Source: Chitinophaga pinensis
Lineage (GTDB): Bacteria > Bacteroidota > Bacteroidia > Flavobacteriales_D > Crocinitomicaceae
Direction of reading: 5' to 3'
DNA: 64,000 nucleotides
NCBI GenBank assembly: GCA_945863605.1
Contig: CAMAZP010000002.1
Span: 62,001-126,000 of the forward strand
The notes beneath the pieces are model-generated. The model was not told the origin of the DNA. It saw only the letters and a list, made by a program, of their open reading frames with translations, and did not search any database. Shown one piece after another: positions 1 to 8,461 of the stretch. Within the stretch, counting starts at the first letter, position 1. Each line of letters begins with the position of its first letter. Made by a program: the position numbers and the translations under genes.

Positions 1-118
1 AGTTAATCTGTATTTATTGAATGATTACAATATAAACTTGAAAACCTAATAAAATATAGAGTTTTTGCAGTTTCTTAATTGTTTATAGTTAATTACAATT
101 AATATTAATTAATGAATG

Positions 119-138
119 GTTGCACAACGGTTGCACAA
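119..138 (+). repeat. Left copy of GTTGCACAACGGTTGCACAA (two tandem GTTGCRCAA units)
   Basis: 18/20 identical to 8324-8343 in direct orientation; lies just upstream of the integrase -7-like box TATCTTTG (145-152). Confidence 0.7.
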
Positions 139-172
139 TTGTATTATCTTTGAGAATCAAATTATCAAAATA

Positions 173-1492
173 ATGGCAACAGTTAAGTATTTAGTGCGTG
201 GCACTTCAAACCCCTCAAAGATTTATGCAAGACTTTCAGACGGTCGTACAGATAATGGAGGTATTCGATTAATAGCAGACACAAACATTTTAATTAATCC
301 TAAATTTTGGGACACAAAAAAGGGAATGCCTAAACAAATGGCAGAAAACAGCGAGAAATTAAACCAAGAAACAGAATTAAAGGACTTAGATATTAAAATT
401 CTCAAAGAATACGCAAAAGCCAAAGGAACTGGAGCAACCATAAACAAAGATTGGTTAATTGATGTAATTGCAAAATTCAAGAATCCACTACTGGAGCAAA
501 AAACAGAATATTTGAAAGACTTAATCGAAGCCTATCAAACTGAAATGAAAACAAAGATTAATCCTAAAACTGGAAAACCAATTTCACACCTTACAATAAA
601 AAGTTTTAGCACTACTTTGATGAGGTTAAAGAAATTTGAGGAATACAAAAACAAACGTTTTTCAATTAGCGATGTTGATTTGACTTTCAAAAATGAATTT
701 GTAAAGTATGAAAGTGAAAAATTGTTGATTTCTCAAAATAGTATTTCAAAAGATATTCGACAAATAAAAACCGTTTGTTTGGATGCCAACGATAAAGGCT
801 TTTCAATTAGCGAACAATTACGTTCAAGAAAGTTCTACATAAAAGAAGAGCAAACAGCATTCGTAACCATTACAGAAAGTGAAATTGAACTAATCAAAAA
901 ATGCGATTTGAAAAAAGTCAACTACTTAGAGAATGCGAGGGACTGGCTAATTATTGGATGTTGGACTGGATGCCGTGTTAATGACTTAATGCAGTTGACA
1001 AATGATAATATTCAAATCACAACCAAAGGACAGAAATTTATTAGATACACCCAAAGCAAAACAAATAAACAAGTTGATATTCCTATTCATTCAGACGTTA
1101 ACGAAATACTGGAGCGTTTAGGAAATTTTCCCCGACCGATTTCAGACCAACGTTTTAACGAATGGATTAAAAAAGTATGTTTACAAAGTGGATTAGTTCA
1201 AGAAGTTCACGGAACAAGGCAAAACCCAACAACCCACCGCAAAGAAGTTGGAACGTTTCAAAAGTGGGAATTGGTACGTTCACACACTTGCAGACGTTCT
1301 TTTGCTACAAATCATTACAATAAGCTACCTAATAAATTAATAATGGCGGTTACTGGACATTCAACAGAAAAAATGTTGCTCAACTACATAGGGGAAACAG
1401 AAAACGACCATTTAGATGACTTTTTAAGCGTTTGGAACACACCAAAACCGAAAGACGAAAAGATTATTCAATTGAATGAGAAACAAGGTTAA
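173..1492 (+). CDS. Tyrosine recombinase / phage integrase family
   Basis: C-terminal RSHTCRRSFATNHY...MAVTGHSTEKMLLNYIG carries H-x-x-R and the catalytic Y; ORF track starts at 116 but MATVKYLVRG at 173 is a more typical start. Confidence 0.93.
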   Translation: MATVKYLVRGTSNPSKIYARLSDGRTDNGGIRLIADTNILINPKFWDTKKGMPKQMAENSEKLNQETELKDLDIKILKEYAKAKGTGATINKDWLIDVIAKFKNPLLEQKTEYLKDLIEAYQTEMKTKINPKTGKPISHLTIKSFSTTLMRLKKFEEYKNKRFSISDVDLTFKNEFVKYESEKLLISQNSISKDIRQIKTVCLDANDKGFSISEQLRSRKFYIKEEQTAFVTITESEIELIKKCDLKKVNYLENARDWLIIGCWTGCRVNDLMQLTNDNIQITTKGQKFIRYTQSKTNKQVDIPIHSDVNEILERLGNFPRPISDQRFNEWIKKVCLQSGLVQEVHGTRQNPTTHRKEVGTFQKWELVRSHTCRRSFATNHYNKLPNKLIMAVTGHSTEKMLLNYIGETENDHLDDFLSVWNTPKPKDEKIIQLNEKQG

Positions 1493-2159: not shown

Positions 2160-3206
2160 ATGAATGACGAAAATAGAAAAAATGTTGCTATGAGGTTATG
2201 TTACAGCGTAACGTCCGATAATGTAGCAAAAATTTATTTAAATAATTTCAATGATTATTTATACCAAAATTCAGATAAGGTTGAGATAAATGGAATAGTT
2301 ATCGGAAACAGCATTGAAGATAAAATGCTGAAAATAAAAATGAGATTTCCTGATAAAAATGGAAACCCAAATATTAAAACAGCAATAGCTTGTGGAACAA
2401 GGGCAGGTTTTCCAATTACTGAATTAGATTTTATTGATAATCAATTAACTATTCTCAAAGGTTTGAGTTTTACTGATTTCGTGCAAAGAAAGAAATACGA
2501 AACTTATTTAAACTTCATTCAAAATAAAAAAAATCAACCTCAACCCGAACCAAAATTGACAAATACACCTCAACAACAAAACATTAAAAATCAACTACAA
2601 AAAGAAATAAATGGTTTTTCTTTCTTTCAAATTGATATTGTTGGTAGTATCGTAGTTGATGGAAAAATTTATGAAAATGTTACGCAACGAAACAACGATA
2701 GCATAATAACGACAGAAAACTGGAATGAAAGGAAATTAGAATTTTTCAATCAAAGAATGAGTAATTATGAAGATAGTTTTTCTCAAACTGAAAAAATAGA
2801 ACTTGAAATTGAAAATCTTAATAAAGAAGAGTTTGAAACAGACAACCATAAAATTCTAAAAAAAAGATATTTGGATTTATTGAATGATAAATTAAATAAC
2901 ACACCTCATCCACAAACACAAGAAAACGAAATTGAACATCCATTTTCGAGCAAAACAAATTTTGAATTATTCAAATATTTGGACGAATGGTTTAAACCAA
3001 GAGGTAAAAAAGCAAAATACACCTACATTTTTAATCATTTTAAAGATAATGATTTTGAACCTCTACTCTCTCAAAACACTTATTTAGAGTTCGTTATGAG
3101 TTTTAAAAACATTAAAATTGCAGACAGATTACAGGGTGCACCCTCTAATAAAATTGACGCTGAAATAAATAGATTAGTATCTGAATTTAAAAAATCGAAT
3201 AGTTAA
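2160..3206 (+). CDS. Hypothetical protein, element-borne
   Basis: 348-aa ORF; Q/P-rich linkers; no family recognised. Confidence 0.6.
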   Translation: MNDENRKNVAMRLCYSVTSDNVAKIYLNNFNDYLYQNSDKVEINGIVIGNSIEDKMLKIKMRFPDKNGNPNIKTAIACGTRAGFPITELDFIDNQLTILKGLSFTDFVQRKKYETYLNFIQNKKNQPQPEPKLTNTPQQQNIKNQLQKEINGFSFFQIDIVGSIVVDGKIYENVTQRNNDSIITTENWNERKLEFFNQRMSNYEDSFSQTEKIELEIENLNKEEFETDNHKILKKRYLDLLNDKLNNTPHPQTQENEIEHPFSSKTNFELFKYLDEWFKPRGKKAKYTYIFNHFKDNDFEPLLSQNTYLEFVMSFKNIKIADRLQGAPSNKIDAEINRLVSEFKKSNS

Positions 3207-3594: not shown

Positions 3595-3792
3595 ATGGAA
3601 TCAACAAAAAAAGGGATGCCGTTAGACACCCCAAATTTATCAAATTATCGACTTACTGGCGAAAGTTTACCGACAGTTCAAAGATACAAAAATCATTCAT
3701 TTGTTGAATCATTCTTGAATCAATTCAATACGACAGACCGCCGTTTTTATACTGGTGCAATTGTGGAACTATCTAAACACTTGAAAAGATGA
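3595..3792 (+). CDS. Small hypothetical protein
   Basis: 65-aa ORF overlapping the next start (ATGA); operon context. Confidence 0.5.
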   Translation: MESTKKGMPLDTPNLSNYRLTGESLPTVQRYKNHSFVESFLNQFNTTDRRFYTGAIVELSKHLKR

Positions 3793-4028
3793 GAGGGACA
3801 CAAGAACAGCAGTTTCAAAAATGGTTTAATCGTGGAATCTTTACAATGAAACAAGTATCTGTAAAGACAGAAATAGACCGTGCGAACGTTTGTAGATTTA
3901 TTAGCAAAATGAAGCGTTCTAATAGCATTTATTTAGTGCGAAGAGGTATTTGTCCAATCACTAAAGATGTTGCAGGATTTTATACTACAAACTACAATTT
4001 GTATTTAACAAATAAAGGTTTGAAGTAA
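3789..4028 (+). CDS. Small putative HTH protein
   Basis: FTMKQVSVKTEIDRANVCRFISKMKRSNSIYLVRRG resembles a winged-HTH; TAATG overlap with the next ORF. Confidence 0.55.
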   Translation: MRGTQEQQFQKWFNRGIFTMKQVSVKTEIDRANVCRFISKMKRSNSIYLVRRGICPITKDVAGFYTTNYNLYLTNKGLK

Positions 4029-6388
4029 TGGAAACAGAAAACACACCTATTGAAGTTCTAAGGAATGAGGCTATAAATTCAGTTAGGGAACGATGTAATT
4101 CAAAGAAACAACTATTTGAGTTTACGGATGCTTACAAGTTAAAAGACCAAACGAAATACGCTACAAATCGAGATAAAACAATTCTCGAAGCCATTAAATT
4201 TTTAACTAAGAATCCACTACAAAAAAACGACTATTTCAAGTATGTTAATGCGTATTATTCAACTGGAATCAAACTAAATGAAAAGTATTTTCGACATAAC
4301 ATTGAAAAGCTAAATTCCTACTATAAAAAGATTGATGAAGCGAAGCATAACAATAAGAATTTAAATCCATTCAATCGGACTAATTACGAAAGTTATGCTT
4401 TGTTTATGGCACTCAAATTACAAGGTTGCTACATTGACAGCGATAACGATTTATTTCACTTAGAATTTAAAGACCATAGAGAATACAATCCACTATCTAA
4501 AATTCCAAGCGTTTTGCGTGGATGCCTACCTTTTGCAGTTAAAGAATACGACATAAAACGTGCTTTTCCCTCTTTCATTGATATTGAATTGAACACCGAT
4601 TTCAGACAAACAATTTATGATAAAATAAAAAAGTCAGATTTTGCGATGTACTTAAATTCAAATAATGAATCCAAAGTAAACATTGAACAAGCGAGAAAAG
4701 GATTTAAGCCTATTTACAGCGATTTAACGAATGAAGTTATAACAAGTGTTCGCTACAATGAAAAGGGACGTGCATTTAAAGATTTTACTAAATACGAAAG
4801 TGACTACATTCAAAAGTTTGTTGATGCAAATAAGTTGACCAATTTTGCAAGGTTGCACGATGGCGTTTTTGTACTGGAATCGACACAATGCGAAAAGCTG
4901 AAATTTGGCAAAGTTGAATTTTCAATCAAAGAAAGTATTGCACCCGAAATTACAAACGATGTTATTTCATTTTATCAATTCAATGATTTTGGCGAAGTTG
5001 AAACGTGTCCAACGATGTACGCCGACTTTTTAAAACAAGAAAATTTCATTCGTATTTCGACACCAGATGACAAAATCCAACTTTTAAAAAATACAAATAA
5101 TGTAGTTGATTTCTACAATCACAAAACAGATATTGTTTCATTTTTAGAAAGCGAGATAAACGAAATTGACGGCAAATCGGATGCAGTAAGAAATAAAATT
5201 GCAAGGGATAACAACAACGTATTACAGCAGTCATTTACATTATTAGAACCTAATCCACTAATTTATTATAAGGACACACGAACAAGTTTTGGACTACCTT
5301 TTGAGAATGGATTTTTCTACTTTGATGAGGTTGGAACAATGGAAATTAAACGAAAAGAATATTCAGAGGTAAACGGATTTTTTACACCTCATCCAATACA
5401 GAAAAGACAATTCGAGTACACGGATGACATAGGCGATTTTGAACTATTTATACAAAGAATTTCGACTGGAGTTAAAGAATATTCGAATACTACCATTGAT
5501 GACCGTAAAATTATTAAAGCGTTTTATTCAATGATAGGTTATTTGTGTCATAACTTCAAAATAAGAGATACAAGTCAAGCGATAGTCTTAACAGATGAGG
5601 GAGCGAATGACGAAACAAGAAACGGACGGCGTGGTAAAAGTTTAATAGGGGATGCCGTTAAACAAGTCGCAAAAGTTTTGCAAAAGGCGGGGGATGAGTT
5701 TAGAGGGGATTACATTCACAATTACGCAGACCTCGATAAAAGTTATAGTTGTTATTTAGTGGATGACGTACCCGCAAAATTTAATTTCAATCATTTATAC
5801 ACACCAATAACACAAGGTATAAACGTGCAACCAAAGGGAAAACAAGCCGTTCAAATCGAGTTTGAAGACAGCCCGAAATTTCTCATTACTTCAAACTGGT
5901 TAATTCGTTACGATGAGGATGACGCTTCTACAAATGCAAGGTTTACAGAATACAAAATCAAACCATACTACAATATTAATCACAGACCAAAAAACGAGTT
6001 TGAAAAATTATTTTTTGATGAGTGGGACGGCGTGGAATGGAACAAATACTATTCTTTTATTTTTAGATGCGTTCACTTGTTTTTAAATCGTGGTCTAATT
6101 ACAATCAAATACGATAAGACACTTGACAATTTTAACGCTTCATTTGGGAACGATGTCACAAGGGATGAGTTAGCGAGAATCATTGATGAGATTATCAATA
6201 TTGAAAGAGTAGTTGCATTTAGTGTTTCTGATTTTTTAAAGATTTACAACAAATACGATAATCCATTAAGAATTGAAAAGTTATTTCACAAGAACAATTC
6301 TAAAAAGCTAATTGATATTTATTTGAAAAGCGTTAACGGAAATCAATTTATTTACAATTCAAAGCATAAAAAATGGATGAAAGACTAA
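4028..6388 (+). CDS. Putative polymerase/primase (TV-Pol-like)-SF3 helicase fusion, replication protein
   Basis: SF3 Walker A NGRRGKSLIG, Walker B CYLVDD, sensor PKFLITSNW, Arg-rich TNARF; N-terminal half has A-family-like YDIKRAFPSFID (motif A) and FARLHDGVFV (motif C). Confidence 0.8.
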   Translation: METENTPIEVLRNEAINSVRERCNSKKQLFEFTDAYKLKDQTKYATNRDKTILEAIKFLTKNPLQKNDYFKYVNAYYSTGIKLNEKYFRHNIEKLNSYYKKIDEAKHNNKNLNPFNRTNYESYALFMALKLQGCYIDSDNDLFHLEFKDHREYNPLSKIPSVLRGCLPFAVKEYDIKRAFPSFIDIELNTDFRQTIYDKIKKSDFAMYLNSNNESKVNIEQARKGFKPIYSDLTNEVITSVRYNEKGRAFKDFTKYESDYIQKFVDANKLTNFARLHDGVFVLESTQCEKLKFGKVEFSIKESIAPEITNDVISFYQFNDFGEVETCPTMYADFLKQENFIRISTPDDKIQLLKNTNNVVDFYNHKTDIVSFLESEINEIDGKSDAVRNKIARDNNNVLQQSFTLLEPNPLIYYKDTRTSFGLPFENGFFYFDEVGTMEIKRKEYSEVNGFFTPHPIQKRQFEYTDDIGDFELFIQRISTGVKEYSNTTIDDRKIIKAFYSMIGYLCHNFKIRDTSQAIVLTDEGANDETRNGRRGKSLIGDAVKQVAKVLQKAGDEFRGDYIHNYADLDKSYSCYLVDDVPAKFNFNHLYTPITQGINVQPKGKQAVQIEFEDSPKFLITSNWLIRYDEDDASTNARFTEYKIKPYYNINHRPKNEFEKLFFDEWDGVEWNKYYSFIFRCVHLFLNRGLITIKYDKTLDNFNASFGNDVTRDELARIIDEIINIERVVAFSVSDFLKIYNKYDNPLRIEKLFHKNNSKKLIDIYLKSVNGNQFIYNSKHKKWMKD

Positions 6389-6392
6389 AAAA

Positions 6393-6722
6393 GGTTACAA
6401 CCGTTACGGTAGTTACAACCGTGGTTACAACCTTGAATCGCTATAAAACTTTATTTTTCAGTATTTTAAACCACTGGTTACGACCGTTACGACCATTTTT
6501 ACAATCATTATTTATACTTATAATACATAGTGTTTTTAATAGGTTTTTGTACTCTCATTTTATTTTGTGCGTAGAACTTGAAAATTACCGTAACGGTTGT
6601 AACCAACTATTTAATATTTTGATATTCAGATATTTACAAGTAGATGAGGTTGTAACCGAGGTTGTAACGGTTGTAACCAAATCGCATAACTATTTGCAAA
6701 TCAATAAATTAAGGTTGTAACC
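6393..6722. repeat. Opposed iteron clusters (GGTTACAACC/GTTACGACC and GGTTGTAACC) around an AT-rich spacer; candidate replication origin
   Basis: Left copies at 6393, 6411, 6423, 6476, 6485; reverse-complement copies at 6595, 6648, 6660, 6669, 6713; AT-rich spacer ~6495-6580. Confidence 0.8.
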
Positions 6723-6752: not shown

Positions 6753-7091
6753 ATGAATGAAGACACCACACCGATAATTACGGATGAAAACGGTAGAGAT
6801 ACCAAAGGACGCTTTGCAGTTGGAAATGTAGGAAAACCAAAAGGAGCGACCAATAAAACCACTAAGGATTTACAGAAATTTATTACTAATTTCCTGAATG
6901 AAAAATCTTTTGAAATTCCATTGATTTGGAATACCTTAGATGACAAAGATAAAGCAACTTTATTTCTACATTTATCAAAATTGGTTATGCCTAAACAATT
7001 GACAGATGAGGAACAAGAAACTGGAATAAGACCAATAATAATAAATTTAGGTAGTGGAATAAATCCTGAAACCAAAATGATTAACCAATAA
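6753..7091 (+). CDS. Small KGxxNK-motif protein (DUF5681-like)
   Basis: KGRFAVGNVGKPKGATNKTT; similar to 7337-7633. Confidence 0.6.
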   Translation: MNEDTTPIITDENGRDTKGRFAVGNVGKPKGATNKTTKDLQKFITNFLNEKSFEIPLIWNTLDDKDKATLFLHLSKLVMPKQLTDEEQETGIRPIIINLGSGINPETKMINQ

Positions 7092-7336: not shown

Positions 7337-7633
7337 ATGATACAACGACAAAAAACGGGGGGACGTGCCAAAGGAACACCCAACAAAGCGACAGTAGAAT
7401 TAAGGGAACGTTTTACTTCATTACTGGAATCAAACTTTGACACCATTCAAAGCGACCTCAACACCTTAGAACCAAAAGACAGAATCAAAACAATACTTGA
7501 AATATCAAAATTCGTTATTCCGACTTTAAAGTCAGTTGACCACCAAATCGAAACCGATTTACAAAACTTAAAATTTGACTTTGAACAAGAAGTTATCAAA
7601 GTTATAATCGTCCCACCAACGAAAGAGGTTTAA
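7337..7633 (+). CDS. Small KGTPNK-motif protein (DUF5681-like), paralogue of 6753-7091
   Basis: TGGRAKGTPNKATVELRERF...ILEISKFVIP. Confidence 0.6.
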   Translation: MIQRQKTGGRAKGTPNKATVELRERFTSLLESNFDTIQSDLNTLEPKDRIKTILEISKFVIPTLKSVDHQIETDLQNLKFDFEQEVIKVIIVPPTKEV

Positions 7634-8247
7634 ATGTATTTTAACAATAAAAGAAATAATCCAAGCATAACCAAAGAAGCTAGTGCGTAAACAGCTAAAG
7701 TAGTTGTACTAACTTGTTTTTGCAATAGGTTAGAAGTATTACAATGAGGACAATTCCAAACTTTAGATTTATCAATATTTGCGTAAAACTCTTTTTTACA
7801 AACCCCACAATTATAATTTTGAGTATTATCTTCTTTTGATTTAAAACCATTTAAATGGACTTGTTCAGTTGTAGTTGATTTTTTTAATGACTCAATTTTT
7901 TCATCTGTTAGAGAAACACACAAGCTAATCAATTCAATAATTTTAGAAATGTGAATATTTGCACTGGTTATTTCGTGTGATTTATCGAAAGCACCTATTT
8001 TTCTTCTTACTTCGATTTCAATTGTCGTTTTATTTTCGCTTACTTCAGAAAGGCTAATATCAATGTAAACACCCAAACTCAAAAATTCAGTTGCTTCAAA
8101 AGTGTATAAATTAAAAACTTCATTTTTAGAAGTGAATTTGTAAGCTTTATCTTTAGTAAGTGGAATAAAACCAATAGTTTCTTTTAACTTACTTATTGGA
8201 AAATCAATTGTAATTGTTTTTTTTGGATTTGGAAGAGCGCCTATCAT
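7630..8247 (-). CDS. Zinc-ribbon protein with C-terminal transmembrane helix
   Basis: CGVCKKEF...WNCPHCNTS followed by LAVYALASLVMLGLFLLLLKYI. Confidence 0.65.
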   Translation of the reverse strand: MIGALPNPKKTITIDFPISKLKETIGFIPLTKDKAYKFTSKNEVFNLYTFEATEFLSLGVYIDISLSEVSENKTTIEIEVRRKIGAFDKSHEITSANIHISKIIELISLCVSLTDEKIESLKKSTTTEQVHLNGFKSKEDNTQNYNCGVCKKEFYANIDKSKVWNCPHCNTSNLLQKQVSTTTLAVYALASLVMLGLFLLLLKYI

Positions 8248-8382: not shown

Positions 8383-8390
8383 TAAAAAAG

Positions 8391-8461
8391 AGGTCTCGTC
8401 CGGATTCGAACCGGAGTAGACGGTTTTGCAGACCGGTGCCTAGCCGCTCGGCCACGAGACC
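8391..8461 (-). tRNA. tRNA-Cys (anticodon GCA)
   Basis: GGTCTCG...CGAGACC acceptor stem, discriminator T, GGTTCGAATCC T-arm, CTGCAAA anticodon loop. Confidence 0.95.

Follow-up and report, generated by a model that had tools for sequence, protein, structure and literature searches.

A gene in the window (the whole stretch of DNA that was analysed, 64,000 nucleotides long) raises the question of whether a very small integrated element might be replicated by one protein of its own. The original prediction concerned positions 4028-6388, and an open reading frame of 786 amino acids (aa) was found exactly there, on the forward strand; its product is called P0001 below. In our reading, which we hold with good confidence, the gene initiates replication of a small tRNA-integrating mobile element, and it encodes a minimal, diverged A-family (TV-Pol-like) polymerase/primase joined to a superfamily 3 (SF3) ring helicase. 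That the protein is an active enzyme, and that the element replicates on its own and moves, is our inference from the evidence set out in the following sections.

A small element integrated at a tRNA gene

The host is a flavobacterium with a 3.09-Mb draft genome (G000). The element had been put at about 8.4 kb, a size borne out by the 8,413 bp that lie between 17-bp direct repeats at both ends, where the 3' end of tRNA-Cys is duplicated. A syntenic element (L066/L020) is integrated at tRNA-Leu in the Flavobacteriales MAG ZLKRG09, of the same genus, and its fusion protein is 79% identical to P0001. Related elements are found at tRNA-Ser (L063) and tRNA-Lys (L065), each with a tRNA duplication of its own of 15-16 bp; att duplications are present in these four elements at tRNA-Cys, -Leu, -Ser and -Lys. 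The existence of syntenic and related elements at other tRNA genes therefore points to a mobile family rather than a chance reading frame. In an empty-site comparison, synteny with the closest relative (G228) stops right past the left-flank gene. The features of the element are as follows.

C2:61973-61989: attL, copy of AAAAGAGGTCTCGTCCG, 28 bases ahead of window base 1
116..1492, forward strand: tyrosine integrase, 458 aa (Pfam Phage_integrase E=1.8e-8, Phage_int_SAM_5 E=8e-8; L066 integrase 65% identical)
2160..3206, forward strand: ORF348, 348 aa, function not recognised; C-terminal ~100 aa 78% conserved in L066
3296..3592, forward strand: HTH_17 (AlpA/excisionase-type) DNA-binding protein, 98 aa (PF12728 E=4.8e-11; 92% identical in L066, 52% in L004)
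3595..3792, forward strand: small conserved protein, 65 aa (78% identical in L066; third-position excess)
3789..4028, forward strand: small conserved protein, 79 aa (82% identical in L066, 48% in L064)
4028..6388, forward strand: polymerase-helicase fusion protein P0001, 786 aa (TV-Pol-like polymerase/primase domain and SF3 helicase)
6753..7091, forward strand: small conserved protein, 112 aa, N-terminus KGRF..GKPKGATNK (67% identical in L066)
7337..7633, forward strand: small protein, 98 aa, paralogue of the 6753..7091 product (44% identical protein in L063)
7630..8247, reverse strand: zinc-ribbon/membrane-type protein, 205 aa, cargo (zinc-ribbon matches, all weak)
8386..8402, no strand: attR, 17-bp AAAAGAGGTCTCGTCCG, overlapping the tRNA-Cys 3' end
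8390..8461, reverse strand: tRNA-Cys(GCA), the integration target (ARAGORN; Rfam RF00005)

The genes thus run from the tyrosine integrase through ORF348, the HTH_17 protein and two small proteins to the fusion protein. Iterons come next, then the genes of small conserved proteins and an opposite-strand cargo gene. Family searches with ORF348 returned zero matches, and the 79-aa protein is possibly a winged-HTH protein. The cargo gene is missing from L066, as is any homologue of an opposite-strand lipoprotein-like gene at 1499-2080 that weakly resembles a lamin-tail domain (PADLOC LTD model, E=1.7e-5). The second of the two paralogous small proteins begins with GGRAKGTPNK; both are kept in related elements and show weak similarity to phrog_8771. 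Pfam and other family searches recognised no capsid, relaxase or conjugation genes in the element.

Integrity and distribution of the fusion gene

The motif strings on which the earlier proposal was built (NGRRGKSLIG, CYLVDD, PKFLITSNW, TNARF, EYDIKRAFPSFID and NFARLHDGVFVLES) are all present in P0001 and are kept in its orthologues. These fusion orthologues are 79, 60, 60 and 49% identical to P0001, with both halves conserved. Compared with its 79% orthologue, the gene differs at 117, 81 and 278 first, second and third codon positions, respectively; it is intact and under purifying selection. Their retention in the orthologues, in a gene that shows the substitution pattern of coding DNA, means that the quoted motifs are not due to chance.

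Of 246 genomes of the family, 5 contain P0001-type fusions (G000, G179, G014, G024 and G027). The window's own genome aside, a sample of 398 genomes of the phylum held no full-length fusion and a sample of 395 genomes of the class no P0001-type polymerase domain. Searches of IMG/VR, phage and plasmid collections likewise returned no fusion; when IMG/VR was scanned with either the protein or alignments as the query, one helicase-type relative and zero polymerase domains emerged, and phage records held no full-length relative. The P0001-type fusion family thus looks rare.

This distribution bears on the idea that the element is a phage satellite, replicated by the fusion protein upon induction by a helper phage. 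With an integrase, an AlpA-type HTH_17 protein and a primase-helicase in 8.4 kb between 17-bp repeats, the element is similar to the core of the PICMI satellites (PMC10803314), and the PICMI/PICI core is indeed present here as PF00589, PF12728 and the fusion protein; the lack of recognised capsid, relaxase and conjugation genes would also fit. However, neither a packaging gene nor a helper was identified, IMG/VR yielded no relative of the fusion protein and phage records none over its full length, and the target is tRNA-Cys and not the fis site used by PICMI. We consider a satellite lifestyle less likely than not.

An SF3 helicase in the C-terminal half

5138..6388, forward strand: SF3 (D5/DUF5906-type) helicase and C-terminal region, residues ~371-786 (motifs; phrog_28855 E=8.5e-32)

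The C-terminal half had been credited with a textbook set of SF3 helicase motifs, and the set is complete. Walker A (NGRRGKS, residues 533-538), Walker B (VDD, 579-580), B' (595-604), motif C (PKFLITSN, 616-623) and the arginine finger (R638) follow in order and align with Bacteroidota DUF5906-containing homologues, that is, helicases of the DUF5906/D5 type. In SF3 helicases of the poxvirus D5 type, DUF5906 corresponds to the AAA+ helicase portion (PMC9611036). P0001 has no Pfam match and does not reach the DUF5906 cut-off, which its homologues L002, L023 and L040 pass (PF19263); the SF3 assignment is one made from sequence, on motifs and homology and not on the Pfam DUF5906 model.

A diverged TV-Pol-like domain in the N-terminal half

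4205..5032, forward strand: TV-Pol-like domain, residues 60-335; putative thumb helices, then R151 in the Arg hairpin, D175 in motif A, K202 in the reduced fingers and H277-D278 in motif C

The N-terminal half has zero sequence matches in Pfam, NCBIfam or the PDB, and PDB sequence and profile searches gave no relevant match. Its assignment was reached through conserved residues, intermediate sequences and a predicted structure. R151, R164, D175, Y197, K202, E257, H277 and D278 are invariant in a 24-sequence alignment that includes homologues down to 13-20% identity. The two sites expected to be catalytic, the motif-A Asp of DIKRAFP (D175) and the motif-C His-Asp of LHDG (H277-D278), are thus conserved throughout, as the original prediction required.

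Profile comparisons were made with an HMM of 14 stand-alone TV-Pol-like proteins, built without any P0001-type sequence. It retrieved L006, an orthologue that shares 60% identity with P0001, at E=1.4e-4, and L077, the intermediate, at E=5.8e-4; the best unrelated ORF among 696 stood at 0.27. When L077 was added to the model, L006 moved to 2.9e-8 and P0001 to 9.5e-4, and with the whole intermediate group P0001 reached 1.5e-17. A profile-profile comparison, made independently, gave E=1.5e-6. Taken at the level of sequence, these results argue strongly that the N-terminal domain is homologous to stand-alone TV-Pol-like proteins, to which L077 links it. Direct hhalign comparison with PolA of the same phylum was weak, with E-values of 0.002-0.5 and some profiles above shuffled controls. 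The case for a relationship to PolA itself is accordingly built on the ranking of folds, the order of the motifs and published work.

The TV-Pol family was described as having an N-terminal thumb of two antiparallel helices, a beta-hairpin ahead of motif A whose Arg is absolutely conserved, two metal-chelating Asp residues in the palm and, after the first palm strand, fingers with RxxxK in the first HTH helix and a conserved Asp, and as related to superfamily A polymerases (Iyer et al., 2008; PMC2579912). An AlphaFold model of the polymerase domain (mbf3d27e89f6a), built from 23 sequences with a plasmid-record row omitted, has a pLDDT of 79, with a core above 90; a full-length model with 5 orthologues (pLDDT 42) was discarded. 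In the retained model, two helices are followed by a beta-hairpin with R151, the D175 strand, the K202 helices, long helices, a hairpin turn with H277-D278 and a further strand. The two helices that would form the thumb are predicted at model residues 33-48 and 58-75 (pLDDT 66-89), and R151 sits in the predicted hairpin at model residues 87-94, ahead of motif A. Putative thumb helices, Arg hairpin and palm are modelled in A-family order, which is also the order given for TV-Pol in PMC2579912.

Foldseek comparison of the model with the PDB placed Pol I-type enzymes at ranks 1 to 3, and by our own count the top 50 comprised 42 A-family polymerases, 7 B-family polymerases and 1 reverse transcriptase. 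No PDB match was significant by itself (best E=0.14, TM 0.13-0.36), so the ranking supports the assignment without proving it. In a viral library the single significant match was a protein without a name (A0A499SAH4, E=6.8e-5); the Zamilon virophage replication protein ranked 23rd (E=0.15, prob 0.66, not significant). The fold check that had been suggested for this half therefore placed A-family polymerases first, with neither an AEP primase nor an unrelated fold among the PDB top 50. This result weighs on a different assignment, in which the N-terminal half would be an AEP primase or a reverse-transcriptase-like palm and not an A-family derivative. This type of SF3 helicase is usually paired with AEP domains, DIKxAF superficially resembles motif A of reverse transcriptases, and a DGR reverse transcriptase stands at Foldseek rank 29. 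Yet Pfam gave no AEP match either, the Arg of the hairpin precedes motif A and the His-Asp of motif C as in the A family, and relatives have RxxxK; we regard this assignment as highly improbable.

One qualification to the TV-Pol-like reading of the domain concerns the fingers. The insertion is present and K202 is invariant, and the Arg position of RxxxK is D or E in the P0001 clade; RxxxK is complete in L014, L044, L077, L004 and others. Because RxxxK is reduced to its Lys, P0001 is placed in a diverged TV-Pol-like branch and not among the canonical members, and with the fingers Arg lost its handling of nucleotides may differ from that of canonical TV-Pol. The predicted TV-Pol-like and SF3 architecture is thus upheld by motif order, profile links and fold ranking, with the provisos that the fingers motif is only partly kept (K202) and the PolA profile match is weak.

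The reduced fingers and missing Arg might also mean that the domain has lost catalysis and serves only in DNA binding or helicase loading, and some A-family-like proteins of mobile genetic elements have been reported as vestigial palms (PMC10061031). Nevertheless, all homologues retain both metal-binding Asp residues, together with the His of motif C, the Arg of the hairpin and the Lys of the fingers, and we consider a loss of catalysis unlikely.

The domain occurs in other settings as well. A second group within the 246 genomes of the family has the same N-terminal domain without an SF3 match. It includes proteins of about 900 aa (L014, L015, L019 and L077) in which the TV-Pol-like domain accompanies motifs such as QAYGRIRKN; these have no Pfam match, and the motifs suggest a helicase part of the SF2-like type. 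A stand-alone TV-Pol-like version lies directly 5' of an SF3 helicase gene in L053. Proteins of about 800 aa (L044 and L045; L067:6189-8585) combine the domain with a C-terminal half of no identified type, and L067 also carries a related integrase and an HTH_17 gene. Jumbo phages of 635-642 kb (LR756502.1, LR756504.1 and LR745206.1) contain TV-Pol-like matches at 26-29% identity.

Exchange of putative primase domains on one type of helicase

In other Bacteroidota, the same type of SF3 helicase is fused to Prim-Pol/PriCT or to BT4734-like_N domains; in L004, L011 and L013 it is followed by a stand-alone TV-Pol gene. A further arrangement is seen in L009, L010 and L012, where a stand-alone SF3 helicase gene precedes a Zn_ribbon_16/DUF6371 protein, which may be another primase-like partner. 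A priming role is argued for P0001 because AEP Prim-Pol and TV-Pol-like domains occupy the same slot on the helicase; the exchange of domains in one slot was the argument by which Iyer et al. predicted primase-polymerases (PMC2579912). That AEP and TV-Pol-like domains alternate on a single type of helicase in the same bacterial phylum is a clear example of primase replacement, and it bears on the origin of virophage primase-helicases.

The same slot gives rise to a narrower interpretation, in which the N-terminal domain does no more than synthesise short DNA primers, elongation is left to the host DNA polymerase III, and loss of the fingers Arg reflects loss of processive synthesis. The Prim-Pol/PriCT and BT4734-like position, the shortened fingers with K202 and no RxxxK Arg, and the fact that an 8-kb bacterial element can use host replicases all speak for it. 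Against it stand the invariant catalytic residues of the palm and the nearest characterised relative, CcPol, which is an active polymerase and needs MP to prime (PMC7581432). We take primer synthesis alone as a serious contender, a little short of an even chance.

A sister element in the same genome (L004; G000:C19:36000-50000) presents the same functions in two genes. Its integrase and HTH_17 protein are 58% and 52% identical to those of the window element, and the two elements share the helicase type and an A-family-like polymerase. L004 carries the SF3 helicase alone (529 aa) beside a 336-aa stand-alone TV-Pol, in which GRVHTPVT.., SLDVVTMQP, DRPAAKTKFFQILFG and SVHDE correspond to the hairpin Arg, the motif A Asp, RxxxK and HDE; the window element has one fused gene with RxxxK reduced. 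Pfam DNA_pol_A matches the L004 TV-Pol weakly (E=0.024), below the cut-off. Origin of the fusion by simple joining of the two L004 genes is disfavoured, as the tree (quick method, midpoint root) separates the L004 TV-Pol from P0001 into its other main group. A type I restriction methylase-like gene lies near L004. A Pinkberry virus protein (L099; OP947160.1:1695-2762) is 42% identical to the L004 TV-Pol over ~230 aa, and its annotation as 'DNA methyltransferase' is probably wrong.

A candidate origin and a proposed mechanism

6394..6721, no strand: candidate replication origin, with 10x GTTACRACC, 5 forward (6394-6494) and 5 inverted (6595-6721)

Directly 3' of the fusion gene lie two iteron arrays of opposite orientation around a centre (6495-6594) of 77% A+T. 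The 10 copies of GTTACRACC compare with 0.51 expected in the 64-kb window, and none occurs outside 6394-6721. The array of L066 has the same spacing and one extra copy; between the two elements, iteron bases are 98% identical and spacer bases 73%. A 115-aa ORF at 6373-6720 was ruled out as a gene, its substitutions being spread 23/22/23 across the codon positions. The iterons bound by SaPI Rep and by SCCmec Cch2 lie immediately 3' of the respective genes (PMC7581432), and because of this shared position the iteron region is likely, by analogy, to be the replication origin. Next to a 60% identical fusion gene, the ori-like region on its 3' side (L064:600-1115) has a different repeat (AAGTGTAAC type), which suggests that iteron specificity shifts along with the fusion protein.

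Judging by gene content and att repeats, the integrase and the HTH_17 protein most likely excise the element as a circle. From the layout of the iterons and the precedents of SaPI Rep and SCCmec Cch2, the helicase half would bind the iterons directly downstream of its gene, and two hexamers would assemble on the inverted arrays and melt the A+T-rich centre. The polymerase half could then prime, and possibly extend, new strands on the exposed template. In its fullest form this scheme would make one SSB-less polypeptide the origin-binding helicase, primer-independent primase and polymerase, with an A-family palm and reduced fingers, a proposal that we find plausible rather than probable. If true, a single chain would constitute a complete primase-helicase of A-family descent, with initiation directed by iterons. 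No SSB partner like the MP of SCCmec was identified in the element.

Comparison with known systems

Replication proteins of this kind are known from virophages and other mobile elements, and P0001 is a diverged form of them rather than a new kind. TV-Pols were predicted to be primase-polymerases in 2008 (PMC2579912), and as of 2020 CcPol was the sole biochemically characterised member (PMC7581432). The virophage TV-Pol-SF3 proteins (Sputnik V13, Zamilon) likewise combine a minimal N-terminal A-family-like polymerase with a C-terminal SF3 helicase in about 780 aa, and the elements that encode them are small and also carry an integrase (PMC2579912, PMC3671162). In contrast to these, the window element is bacterial, tRNA-integrated and without recognised capsid genes, and P0001 has no detectable sequence match to the virophage proteins, a reduced RxxxK and a helicase nearest to the Bacteroidota DUF5906-type SF3 enzymes.

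The CcPol-MP-Cch2 system of SCCmec also pairs a TV-Pol-group polymerase with an initiator helicase that binds iterons 3' of its own gene (PMC7581432). CcPol is unable to prime without MP (PMC7581432), an OB-fold SSB for which no gene was recognised here, and polymerase and helicase are one polypeptide in the window element. The Bacteroidota Prim-Pol/BT4734-like primase-helicases share the SF3/DUF5906-type helicase and the domain layout, whereas their N-terminal domain is of AEP type and that of P0001 is A-family-like. PICMI have the same minimal layout of integrase, AlpA-type HTH_17 protein and DUF5906 primase with 17-bp direct repeats (PMC10803314); they integrate at fis and the window element at a tRNA gene, with an A-family-like primase domain and no known helper. 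Set beside these systems, the compact element is a one-gene TV-Pol-like version with a recognisable candidate origin, and the related L004, in which the same functions are split over two genes, provides a natural control in the same genome.
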